Shown: piece by piece, positions 14,049 through 17,746 of the stretch
Position numbering within the stretch: position 1 is the stretch's first letter
Layout: every line of letters starts with the position of its first letter
From: Desulfobulbaceae bacterium
Lineage (GTDB): Bacteria > Desulfobacterota > Desulfobulbia > Desulfobulbales > SURF-16
Assembly: GCA_020444175.1 (NCBI GenBank)
Contig: JAHLLM010000001.1
Coordinates: 62,001 to 126,000, forward strand
Direction of reading: 5' to 3'
Length of the DNA: 64,000 nt
The notes under the pieces: generated by a model
Databases searched by the model: none
What the model saw: the letters and a program-made list of their open reading frames with translations, nothing else
Told to the model about the DNA's origin: nothing
Made by a program: the position numbers and the translations under genes

Positions 14049-15632
14049 TTATTCGATAAAACAATAGGGATCTTTGTCGTGAAAAACATCCAGCCCAAAA
14101 CCATGAACCACGGCAAGACAGCCGCCGCATACCGGCCTGATTGAACACGCCGAACAGGCCTCGGTGCCGGCCCGGTACTGCTTGGCCTTTTCTCCATGAT
14201 AAACATCATGTATTGATTTTTCAAAGACATTCCCGATATAGGAAGGTAATTTTCGACAGGCATGGGCCTCGCCGTCCGGCAGGATGGAAAAAAAATTGAA
14301 TGCCGCTCCACAGCCATGACCAGCGCACCCTCCGAAAAAAGGTTGCCCCTGCTCTTTTCGAATAATATTCATCAGATTATCTTTTAAACTGAGAATCGGA
14401 TTCTCTGTGGCGGCATCCATGTATTTTTTGAGAAAAACAGCGTATTCATCGGGTTCGGCAGATTTGAGCTGTGCCCCTTCGCCCACCATGGCCAATCTGT
14501 TAAAAGTGAAAAGATCAACCTTCTGCCGCAGCTCTTCGCCCAGGGGAAGCACCTGATCCATATTATCCCTGGTCAGGGTCAGCATCACCATGGAATAGAC
14601 ATCAAGCTCCCTAAGCAGGTCAAGAAACTCCATGACACGACGGTAATGCCCCTTGCCCCTGATATAGTTGTTATGCTCTTCAAGTCCTTCGAGACTTACC
14701 TGGTAAAAAACTGGTTTTTTTATGGCCAGAATCTTTTCCATTGTCTCTTTTGAGGCAGGGTTTCCAAGGATGGCGACCATGAGATTTCGATCAACCGCGC
14801 CTTGATAAAATTCAAAAAAGTGGGGATGAAGGAGCGGATTTCCCCCTGAAAATGAAATCTGCCCCCGCACATGATGCTCCAGACAGAAACGACGCAAATC
14901 ATCCAGAATATGAAATCCCTGCTCCTTTTGCAGGGAAACACGATCACTTCTGTCATAACAATGCTTACAGTGCAGGTCGCATACCTGGGTGATATGCCAT
15001 TGAAGGGTAAAAACCGGTGACGAAAAGTACTTCAAAGGAATGTTGTTTCCCCGGGGGAAGGAGTCGGGATTCCGACGGATGCGGGATTCTGGTTTCAGAA
15101 GTATACCGCGGTGAACAGCCTGACTCAGAGACTGGTCAATGCGCCCCACCGGCACCTCCTGTTCTTTGGCGAGCAGCTCCGGGCTCAGATCGTCGATGAC
15201 GATTTTCAGAGCCAGAAGATCAGCCTCCGAGGCTGTTTGCAGGTGGACTTTTCCTGTTTGAGGCTGACAATAAACCAGAATAAATTCTTCTCCCGGCTGC
15301 GGGGGATTCACTTCCCCCTGATCTGACTCGCGTAACAGTGCAGGAAGATGCTGCCAATCAAGTTTGATCAGTTCAAGGGTCGGGTTCACCGTGAGTTGCT
15401 GAACAGTCTCCGGCATTTGCCGGCAGCCACGCTGCCGGGCCTGAAAGAGAATCCACTCAAGACGGGCCAGGTCATCCAAATAAGCAGGCAGGTTCCAGCT
15501 TTTTTGCAGCTCATCCGATATCTGGGCAAACTTCTCAGGAAAAACGCCAGGGCTTTCTTCCTGAAAAAGCTGCCCCCATTGCTCCTTTGTAAAAAAAGTC
15601 GAACAGCCAGGGAAAATTTCTTCGGGGTTCAT
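14049..15632 (-). CDS. Radical SAM/SPASM maturase of the selenobiotic peptide family
   Basis: 527 residues from ATG 15632 (AAGGA upstream); a GTG at 15707 would add 25. Residues 1-200 are an accessory region of the type seen in this maturase family. The radical SAM cluster motif C218-x3-C222-x2-C225 (VCDLHCKHCYDRSD) is intact. The C-terminal 110 residues are a SPASM domain rich in Cys (GCAGHGCG, CRKLPS, CSACSIRPVCGGC) for auxiliary FeS clusters, as in enzymes that modify ribosomal peptides. It lies directly downstream of a precursor peptide with three in-frame TGA codons, the defining arrangement of the family named selenobiotic in TIGRFAM/NCBIfam. Chemistry and product are unknown. Confidence 0.85.
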   Translation of the reverse strand: MNPEEIFPGCSTFFTKEQWGQLFQEESPGVFPEKFAQISDELQKSWNLPAYLDDLARLEWILFQARQRGCRQMPETVQQLTVNPTLELIKLDWQHLPALLRESDQGEVNPPQPGEEFILVYCQPQTGKVHLQTASEADLLALKIVIDDLSPELLAKEQEVPVGRIDQSLSQAVHRGILLKPESRIRRNPDSFPRGNNIPLKYFSSPVFTLQWHITQVCDLHCKHCYDRSDRVSLQKEQGFHILDDLRRFCLEHHVRGQISFSGGNPLLHPHFFEFYQGAVDRNLMVAILGNPASKETMEKILAIKKPVFYQVSLEGLEEHNNYIRGKGHYRRVMEFLDLLRELDVYSMVMLTLTRDNMDQVLPLGEELRQKVDLFTFNRLAMVGEGAQLKSAEPDEYAVFLKKYMDAATENPILSLKDNLMNIIRKEQGQPFFGGCAGHGCGAAFNFFSILPDGEAHACRKLPSYIGNVFEKSIHDVYHGEKAKQYRAGTEACSACSIRPVCGGCLAVVHGFGLDVFHDKDPYCFIE

Positions 15633-15719
15633 TACGAACAATCCTTGATTCTTGACAAGAGAGACTCCCGGGAAGGGGACAGGAATGCAACACTCCATGT
15701 CCCCCACAAAAAGATATGA

Positions 15720-15747
15720 ACCTGAAGAGCAATCATGCCCTTCAGGT
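15720..15747 (-). terminator. Hairpin between precursor and maturase genes (possible attenuator)
   Basis: On the minus transcript a 12-pair stem (ACCTGAAG pairs with CTTCAGGT, inner GCA/TGC, one G-U) closes a four-base loop and is followed six bases later by TTTTT. This could terminate part of the transcripts after the peptide gene, giving more peptide than maturase. Confidence 0.55.
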
Positions 15748-15755
15748 CTTTTTTT

Positions 15756-15774
15756 GCAGCACGAACCGTGCTGC
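15756..15774 (-). promoter_or_regulatory. SECIS-like hairpin after Sec93 codon, lying beyond the stop codon
   Basis: Begins 14 bases after the TGA: GCAGCAC, loop GGTTC, GTGCTGC, seven perfect pairs. The TAG stop lies between the TGA and the hairpin, sharing its last base with the stem, so this element is free of coding constraint. That makes it the cleanest evidence that the hairpins are selected for Sec insertion rather than for peptide sequence. Confidence 0.8.
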
Positions 15775-16067
15775 TACTTAGAGCCGCTTCAGCCACTGGA
15801 GCCGGCTGGTTCATCATGTTTTTCTTCTTCAGTGTCTGCGTCCGGCGTGTCTTCTTTTTCTTCATGGGTACTGACCGCACCCTCTTTTTTTGCACCTCAG
15901 CCACTTCCGGAGGATGTTTCTTCTTGCTTTTCAGCGCTAACTGCGCTGTCATCTTTTGCTCCTCAGCCGCTGCCGCCCAGGGCGACTCCGGTCGTCATGG
16001 GCAGACCGCTCAACAGGCCGGCAATACCGACCCCGGCCAGCAATTTCTTCAATTCTTTTACATCCAT
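15774..16067 (-). CDS. Selenobiotic-type precursor peptide with three selenocysteines
   Basis: 97 residues when TGA codons at 15963-15965, 15897-15899 and 15789-15791 are read as Sec35, Sec57 and Sec93; the stop is TAG. Start ATG 16067 has GGAGG eight bases upstream. Residues 1-34 form a leader (MDVKELKKLLAGVGIAGLL then a Gly-rich end). The core repeats a unit of the form G-S-G-Sec-G-A-K...A-V-S separated by acidic Glu/Asp/Lys linkers and ends Ser-Ser-Gly-Sec-Ser-Gly-Ser-Lys. Each TGA is followed 14 bases later by a strong hairpin. The adjacent maturase confirms the family. It contains no Cys, so the selenols are the obvious modification sites (inference). Confidence 0.88.
15866..15882 (-). 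promoter_or_regulatory. SECIS-like hairpin after Sec57 codon
   Basis: Begins 14 bases after the TGA: GGGTGC, loop GGTCA, GTACCC. Six pairs including one G-U; the loop GGTC equals that of E. coli fdhF. The stem sequence is unrelated to the other two while spacing and shape are the same. Confidence 0.8.
15932..15948 (-). promoter_or_regulatory. SECIS-like hairpin after Sec35 codon
   Basis: Begins 14 bases after the TGA: CAGCGC, loop AGTTA, GCGCTG. Six perfect pairs, with G in the second loop position and a GT in the loop, like the Escherichia coli fdhF element. Confidence 0.8.
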
Positions 16068-16300
16068 TTTTTTGCCTCCGTCATTTCTTGTTTTTTTTGA
16101 GAGACTGTCTCCAACCTGCTCGTGAACATTACGAATCAGGCTTTCTTCAAGCAAGCGTCAGGCGTTCCCGGGAAGACGCCTTCACCTGCTCCGAACCTCT
16201 AAACAGCAATTATTATCGTTAATAACGACAACCCTGTCAAACTTTATACCAAAAACTTTTTCCATTCGTTTGCACATAAAAAAAGTGGTAGATTACTGCC

Positions 16301-17746
16301 ATGCAATCTTTAGACATTTTACAGAAGTTCTTTGGCTACTCTTCTTTCCGTGGCCAGCAACAGGCAATCATCGACCACATCCTCTCCGGTCGCCATGCCC
16401 TTGTGCTTATGCCAACCGGCATGGGAAAGTCCTGCTGCTATCAGATTCCGGCCCTCATGCTGCCGGGACTGACTGTGGTTATCTCACCTCTTATTGCCCT
16501 GATGCAGGATCAGGTCGATACGCTGGTGCATAAAAATATTGAGGCCTGTTTTATCAATTCATCCCTTGACAGGGCTGAAAGGGAAAAGCGCTATAGGGCC
16601 ATTGACAAGGGCAAATATAAACTTCTTTACGTGACTCCGGAACGTTTTCGGAAACCCGAATTTATCGATCTGATCAGTAAACGGCAGATAAGCCTGCTTG
16701 CTGTGGATGAGGCGCATTGCATCAGTCAATGGGGCCATGATTTCCGGCCGGATTACAGCAGAATCAAGGAATTTCGCAGCTATCTCGGCAACCCGACAAC
16801 CATTGCCCTGACAGCAACGGCAACACCCGATGTTCAACGGGATATCATCGAGCAACTGGGACTTGCCCCCCATGAAGTAAAAAAATTCCATGAAGGCATC
16901 AACAGGCCAAACCTGATTTTGCGTGTCCATGATCTTTATGGCGATGAGCAGAAATGCAAAACTATTGTTGACCAGTTCGTCAGCGCACCCGGCAACACCA
17001 TTGTCTACTTTGCCCTTATAAAAACCCTGGAACGCTTCAGCATACTCCTCAACAAACAGGGGATCTCCCATCTCCTTTACCATGGAGGCTTGGACAAAAG
17101 AGAACGCCGCCGCATCCAGCAAACTTTCATGTCAGGGGACAACAATCTTATTCTTGCCACCAATGCCTTTGGCATGGGCATTGACAAGGCTGATATCCGC
17201 CACGTCCTGCATGCGGAGGTACCTGGTTCCATGGAGGCCTATTACCAGGAAATCGGCCGAGCCGGTCGTGATGGCAAAAAGGCGGACTGCACCCTGCTTT
17301 ACGACGAGCAGGACCTGCTCATTCAGATGGATTTTATTAAGTGGAACAACCCTGATGCGGATTTCTACAACCGGCTTTACCAGATTTTAACTGAAGATCC
17401 TGAAGCGGTAAACGCCCAGGGAACAGAGTGGCTGAAAGAAAAACTTCTCTTTAAAACCAAACACGATTTCAGGGTGGAAACCGGGCTGTCAATGTTTGAC
17501 CGTTACGGGGTCACGGAAGGATCAATTGAAAAACACGACCTTAGAGTAGCGTCACCTTTTCCCAAAGAAATCTCCCAGGAAAAAGTAAACGCCAAGATGA
17601 AAAACGAACAAAAAAAACTGCATTTCATGGTTGGCTACATCAAGACAGAGGGCTGTCGCAAGGCCCTTATTCATGAGTATTTCGGCATTGAACACCCAGA
17701 CCGGTGCGGAGCCTGCGATCTCTGCCTCGGCTCTTTTAACGGGTAA
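16301..17746 (+). CDS. RecQ-type ATP-dependent DNA helicase, short form without HRDC
   Basis: 481 residues. Walker A in MPTGMGKSCC (about residue 47), DEAH box in VDEAHCISQWGHDFRPDY with the RecQ aromatic loop, motif III TATATP, and motif VI QEIGRAGRDG. A four-Cys zinc-binding segment closes the protein (GC...CGACDLC). Typical bacterial RecQ is about 600 residues with winged-helix and HRDC domains; here the region after motif VI is short and HRDC is missing. It is divergent from the precursor peptide gene. Role: 3'-5' unwinding in recombination and repair. Confidence 0.88.
   Translation: MQSLDILQKFFGYSSFRGQQQAIIDHILSGRHALVLMPTGMGKSCCYQIPALMLPGLTVVISPLIALMQDQVDTLVHKNIEACFINSSLDRAEREKRYRAIDKGKYKLLYVTPERFRKPEFIDLISKRQISLLAVDEAHCISQWGHDFRPDYSRIKEFRSYLGNPTTIALTATATPDVQRDIIEQLGLAPHEVKKFHEGINRPNLILRVHDLYGDEQKCKTIVDQFVSAPGNTIVYFALIKTLERFSILLNKQGISHLLYHGGLDKRERRRIQQTFMSGDNNLILATNAFGMGIDKADIRHVLHAEVPGSMEAYYQEIGRAGRDGKKADCTLLYDEQDLLIQMDFIKWNNPDADFYNRLYQILTEDPEAVNAQGTEWLKEKLLFKTKHDFRVETGLSMFDRYGVTEGSIEKHDLRVASPFPKEISQEKVNAKMKNEQKKLHFMVGYIKTEGCRKALIHEYFGIEHPDRCGACDLCLGSFNG

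Follow-up and report, generated by a model that had tools for sequence, protein, structure and literature searches.

What is encoded by a short frame that is broken by three TGA codons, holds no cysteine codon and lies directly in front of a radical SAM enzyme gene? The question is raised by positions 15774..16067 of a 64,000-nucleotide stretch of a Desulfobulbaceae bacterium genome (GenBank assembly GCA_020444175.1; the whole stretch is called the window below). A first-pass annotation had proposed a selenocysteine-containing precursor of a ribosomally synthesized and post-translationally modified peptide (RiPP) next to its radical SAM/SPASM maturase. This was confirmed by matches to TIGR04081 and TIGR04082, by hairpins behind the TGA codons and by selenium genes, and its remark that the general family had already been named was borne out, since both profiles (SbtA and SbtM) were matched above cut-off. 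The window sbtA is a good, ordinary member of this named family. The family name and its thio(seleno)oxazole chemistry are already in print, and SbtA/SbtM thio(seleno)oxazole RiPPs are reportedly the subject of work by Lewis et al. in 2021; what was not found in print is a link between SbtM and a partner module of multinuclear non-heme iron-dependent oxidative enzymes (MNIOs). The reading in which a selenocysteine precursor would be converted to selenooxazoles by SbtM and exported via its leader is considered probable.

Predicted selenocysteine codons in sbtA

The frame runs on the minus strand from an ATG at 16067 to a TAG at 15776-15774 and gives 97 residues if TGA (codons 35, 57 and 93) is read as selenocysteine; length, selenocysteine positions, absence of any cysteine and the TAG stop were all as first described. 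The plus-strand frame at 15774..16067 held nothing meaningful and was dropped as nonsense. The leader matched TIGR04081 over residues 1-25 (38 bits, cut-off 30.5), and it is followed by three core units of the form S-G-[selenocysteine/cysteine]-[G/S], each with a hairpin resembling a selenocysteine insertion sequence (SECIS). Description of these as three G-S-G-selenocysteine units in one shared context was correct for units 1 and 2; the third reads S-S-G-selenocysteine and continues with serine, not glycine. The maturase gene follows directly, as claimed, after a gap of 141 bases.

Each SECIS-like stem starts 14 bases 3' of its UGA, in agreement with the first-pass annotation, the third starting at the final base of the TAG. 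Folding energies were -10.3, -10.4 and -13.8 kcal/mol (z -2.0, -2.4 and -2.0) for UGA35, UGA57 and UGA93. Hairpins were scored in 77 precursors, no two of them alike over their first 60 residues. These came from the window, L021 and L023-L120; L017 and L022, which duplicate the window gene, were left out along with further repeats. A score of 14 was reached at 169 of 188 motif UGAs versus 7.3% of dinucleotide shuffles, and a score of 12 at 173 of the 188 versus 12% of 25 cysteine codons at equivalent positions; at other in-gene positions the latter score was reached by 26% of 3234. An Rfam scan of positions 15000-17000 gave seven matches, all far under gathering scores, and no SECIS assignment.

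In the 77 precursors the motif S-[G/S/A]-U-[G/S]-G-x-K (U, selenocysteine) was kept on both sides of the UGA, and cysteine replaces selenocysteine at equivalent places in relatives, L106 and L110 for example having it in their final unit. Two checks had been named by the first-pass annotation. Protein sequence in relatives was found to continue conserved past all three UGAs, and selA, selB, the tRNA-Sec gene (selC) and selD were all found above cut-off in the host genome, which spans 5.4 Mb and has a tool-estimated completeness of 100%. The host selD (L122, contig C79 of G000) contains a single in-frame TGA, as would fit a SelD that is itself a selenoprotein.

Four precursors (L029, L039, L057 and L090) have cysteine-only cores. 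With selB called at E <= 1e-60, the gene was found in 0 of the 4 genomes with such a precursor versus 31 of 36 other genomes searched (28 of 33 with a selenocysteine precursor, 3 of 3 with no SbtA found in the locus; Fisher p 0.0014), these 40 genomes standing for a selected portion of the 80 loci and being of completeness not established. Since cores with cysteine alone survive in genomes that gave no selB match, selenium is not indispensable. The cysteine-only precursors also offer a natural way to the thio form without selenium. Taken together, the hairpins, the conservation and cysteine replacement across UGA, the sel genes and the selB contrast make the predicted decoding of UGA as selenocysteine in sbtA well supported.

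The maturase and its front module

The sbtM product scored 742.9 bits against TIGR04082 (cut-off 350), and its start is most plausibly at 15632, giving 527 residues as in database copy P0004. Fold matches of the catalytic part included 5wgg (E 1.0e-14), 5v1s (E 9.2e-14) and 6efn (E 5.3e-13).

Residues 1-188 were compared by hhalign with proteins that combine DUF2063 with a RiPP recognition element (RRE), using an alignment of P0129 and 58 relatives. The match extended over 175 columns (E 4.6e-11) with a score of 77.5, versus 22.7 for the best of 100 column shuffles. The front module aligns to the C-terminal part of DUF2063 plus the RRE-like domain and is fused to the enzyme; judged by this profile alignment, it is homologous to the DUF2063-RRE family of MNIO partner proteins. 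Six front pieces of SbtM proteins scanned with Pfam gave no DUF2063 match, and larger Pfam scans of SbtM members found PF09836 in 4 of 29 (best E 0.089) and PF22106 in 4 of 30 (best E 0.055). The RRE piece of SbtM alone matched DUF2063 proteins weakly, and direct sequence comparison of the front module with PDB chains gave chance-level matches (E >= 0.31), NGO1945 not among them. Five other matches without a Pfam domain look like SbtM fragments.

The link between DUF2063 and SbtM was not found in searches of an open-access library, and the accessible parts of a paper on DUF2063-associated RREs (PMC12710340) hold no mention of SbtM, TIGR04082 or selenium. Product and function had been called undescribed. 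This stood for the function, which is not described in the accessible parts of the literature examined, and not for the product chemistry: another SbtM is reported in a review to take four hydrogens from cysteine and selenocysteine peptides, the cysteine product being a thiooxazole (PMC11002830).

Relatives, leaders and neighbouring genes

Among the proteins scored, 3121 were related to SbtM at E <= 0.001, other radical SAM proteins included. SbtA was present in 63 of 80 fetched SbtM loci, and at least seven of the 17 loci without it have <400 bases upstream of SbtM. SbtA and SbtM occurred in the same 15 of 22 genomes of the taxonomic family; across 395 genomes of the phylum, 37 held both, two SbtA only and two SbtM only, the SbtA-only matches lying inside long standard frames and being probably due to chance.

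Selenocysteines per precursor were 0 in 4, 1 in 5, 2 in 27, 3 in 36, 4 in 4 and 5 in 1 (n = 77), counted by a context rule under which a terminal UGA that is a true stop may have been miscounted in a few (e.g. L054); the start of L038 was set too early and several C-termini overrun a likely UGA stop. Three, as the commonest number, is thus the rule and not the exception. Cysteine was absent from 26 of the 77, and 14 combine three selenocysteines with no cysteine, so that this combination does not set the window copy apart as the first-pass annotation had supposed.

The host genome has one SbtM and two SbtA genes. The second SbtA gene is unlinked (contig C78, L021), lies above the TIGR04081 cut-off and has two UGAs (...TSUGGSSGUGAKKPGAGGTDK), the last with a good hairpin (14.8) and the first with a weak one (11). 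Similar second precursors in G017, G018 and G019 have the same units and fall under the cut-off. No common partner was found around these unlinked precursors (L149-L152); a single gene pair was all that any of the four regions had in common with another. Because second precursors are unlinked, and because SbtA and SbtM matches fall on different contigs in G149, G398 and G435, SbtM probably works in trans.

Several side observations concern these loci. About 260 bases upstream of the second host SbtA, and on the same strand, L149:8768-11842 encodes a subtilase of 1025 residues that has a proprotein-convertase P domain. In G017, the second-type SbtA (L152:202-456) has genes for an outer-membrane efflux protein and a pump of the AcrB family (L152:3777-9000) within ~10 kb, an isolated instance that involves a common type of gene. 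Two closely spaced sbtA genes precede one sbtM in L051, L052, L165, L168, L173 and L174 (two leader-profile matches each), and often just one of the two has a lipobox. In L035, L037, L042, L054, L060 and L078, sbtA lies 3' of sbtM, not 5'. A core with six cysteines and one selenocysteine in L175 (leader match, minus strand) might give a mixed thio/seleno product.

SbtA leaders have a mean net charge of +1.5 in residues 1-10, followed by a hydrophobic run. A lipobox was present in 19 of 77 leaders versus 3.4 +- 1.7 in residue shuffles, the sequences being related and the trials not independent, and G, A or S precedes the first cysteine in 24 of the 25 precursors whose first cysteine is at 16-41. 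AxA, a signature of signal peptidase I sites, was found in 24 of the 43 SbtA without such a cysteine versus 16.5 +- 2.8 expected, a weak enrichment among sequences that are again related. The leader sequences suggest a resemblance to signal peptides of the general secretory (Sec) route, via which the peptide may possibly be exported. No third conserved gene (exporter, peptidase or immunity) was found beside sbtAM: the cluster that ranks next among the neighbours, represented in the window by a GGDEF protein, occurs in 15 of 81 regions. Such a lack of a conserved exporter or peptidase would be expected of peptides that take the general Sec route. The bufferin leader is a Sec signal peptide, in some cases of lipoprotein type, and by preliminary results part of the recognition sequence (PMC12452194); a lipidated MNIO peptide was shown in E. 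coli (PMC12636315), and DUF2063-associated RREs pair with precursors having Sec signal peptides (PMC12710340).

The candidate sbtA promoter matched a sigma-70-like pattern at 11 of 12 positions, and TTGAC/GATAAT-like boxes also stand 5' of L023, L024, L105, L106 and L110. The strong hairpin between sbtA and sbtM might act by attenuation, possibly keeping the precursor in excess over the enzyme. Coordinates are collected in the table.

Table. Coordinates of sbtA, sbtM and associated features in the window, and of further precursors in related loci
Feature	Position	Strand	Basis or remark
sigma-70-like promoter, TTGACA-17-GATAAT (candidate)	16212..16240	-	sequence match
ribosome-binding site GGAGG	16075..16079	-	
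sbtA, 97-residue precursor, selenocysteine 35/57/93, TAG stop	15774..16067	-	TIGR04081 match and frame with TGA as selenocysteine
leader, residues 1-31, Sec-signal-peptide-like; putative cleavage VALG/GSGU	15975..16067	-	
UGA codon 35 (GGSGU-GA)	15963..15965	-	
SECIS-like hairpin of UGA35, 6 pairs, loop AGUUA	15932..15948	-	
UGA codon 57 (GSGU-GA)	15897..15899	-	
SECIS-like hairpin of UGA57, 6 pairs, loop GGUCA	15866..15882	-	
UGA codon 93 (SSGU-SG), then four sense codons, then TAG	15789..15791	-	Cys instead in L106, L110
SECIS-like hairpin of UGA93, 8 pairs, loop GUU	15756..15774	-	overlaps last stop-codon base
terminator-like hairpin, 13 pairs, between sbtA and sbtM	15719..15748	-	
sbtM, 527-residue radical SAM/SPASM maturase	14049..15632	-	TIGR04082
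SbtM residues 1-188, DUF2063/RRE-like leader-recognition module	15069..15632	-	profile alignment
SbtM radical SAM domain, PF04055, residues 214-361	14550..14993	-	
SbtM SPASM domain, PF13186, residues 441-496	14145..14312	-	
second SbtA of host genome	L021:1354-1578, also L149:8283-8507	- (L021)	
Cys-only SbtA, SCSG-type repeats	L039:1429-1668; L057:6659-6868; L090:7726-7974; L029:7754-8041		selB not found in genomes

Proposed pathway, alternatives and known systems

In the proposed pathway, SelB and selenocysteine-tRNA would read each UGA with its following hairpin (the parts are present and the decoding is predicted). SbtM would bind the SbtA leader through its front third, the part homologous to DUF2063-RRE proteins, and the radical SAM/SPASM part would remove four hydrogens per selenocysteine and close the ring. 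The leader would then serve as a Sec signal peptide, cut in the window SbtA by signal peptidase I; in relatives with a lipobox, signal peptidase II would do the cutting and the peptide would be lipidated. Carrying three selenium heterocycles set on acidic spacers, the product would be periplasmic and would bind soft metals such as copper. Given the homology of this front third to the DUF2063 helpers of bufferins, which hold periplasmic copper by thiooxazoles (PMC12452194), the selenium peptide may likewise be exported and metal-binding. That SbtM joins an MNIO-type DUF2063-RRE module to a radical SAM engine, that two unrelated oxidative enzymes have come to install one and the same thiooxazole or selenooxazole on precursors of one signal-peptide-led kind, and that SbtA peptides act in anaerobes as the selenium equivalent of bufferins, as selenooxazole metallophores that are periplasmic or anchored by lipid, is a proposal to which we give somewhat less than even chances; binding of soft metal ions such as copper by mature SbtA, argued by analogy with the thiooxazole bufferins, is put forward tentatively.

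Selenocysteine might instead act mainly as selenols in a periplasmic redox buffer, a peroxide or metalloid scavenger or a selenium store, with modification secondary. Selenocysteine is usually a redox residue, several in one small peptide would pack selenols densely, and the hosts of the closest loci are Desulfobulbaceae-type anaerobes. However, SbtM is a constant partner in the phylum (37 genomes with both versus two and two with one), its chemistry consumes the thiol or selenol (PMC11002830), and there are cysteine-only cores in genomes in which selB was looked for and not found, which makes a selenol function unlikely. A secreted antimicrobial, with selenium rings attacking competitors, would accord with the many radical SAM RiPPs that are antimicrobials and with the tabulation of TIGR04081 as 'Selenobacteriocin' in a 2026 review (PMC13188914), but the absence of a recurring exporter, peptidase or immunity gene beside sbtAM speaks against it, as do lipobox leaders, which would tether part of the family to the membrane; it is regarded as quite improbable. 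That the UGAs are real stops in a decayed gene or in unrelated short frames, as the fragments shown by standard-code callers of open reading frames (ORFs) would have it, has a negligible probability and is in our view refuted by the comparison, given conservation across all three UGAs with cysteine at some equivalent positions, the hairpins, the sel genes and the selB contrast.

For the preferred reading of SbtA as an exported, metal-binding selenooxazole peptide, the value of the comparison lies in the front module: by homology, SbtM and the DUF2063 partner proteins have one leader-recognition module in common, and the MNIOs which those partners serve make the same heterocycle on copper-buffering, signal-peptide-led peptides. 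A 'selenobiotic of unknown function' thereby becomes a concrete question of whether SbtA is exported after modification and binds metal. If true, selenium would have a new biological role as the built-in ligand of a ribosomal metallophore, and one recognition module would have been joined to two unrelated oxidation chemistries (MNIO and radical SAM).

Of the known systems, the SbtA/SbtM thio(seleno)oxazole RiPPs share with the window the leader family, the maturase family, the SGU units, a SECIS-like hairpin per UGA and the two-gene layout, and nothing sets the window copy apart from them; the SbtM that has been studied reportedly comes from Geobacter lovleyi. CteB, SuiB and SkfB are radical SAM RiPP maturases with an RRE that form thioether or C-C links. 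Their catalytic fold is like that of SbtM, whereas SbtM belongs to a separate equivalog family and has a front module of DUF2063-RRE type. No MNIO (DUF692) was matched by Pfam in the ten neighbouring ORFs scanned beside sbtA, and the adjoining enzyme is a radical SAM protein. Bufferins, made by the MNIO BufB with its DUF2063-RRE partner BufC, resemble SbtA/SbtM in the formation of thiooxazole from cysteine, in a module of DUF2063-RRE type and possibly, judged by the look of the SbtA leaders, in the Sec-type N-terminal signal of bufferin precursors, some of which have lipoprotein signals (PMC12452194); they differ in that SbtM is a radical SAM/SPASM enzyme instead of an MNIO, carries the module fused to it and has selenocysteine in place of cysteine as its substrate residue.
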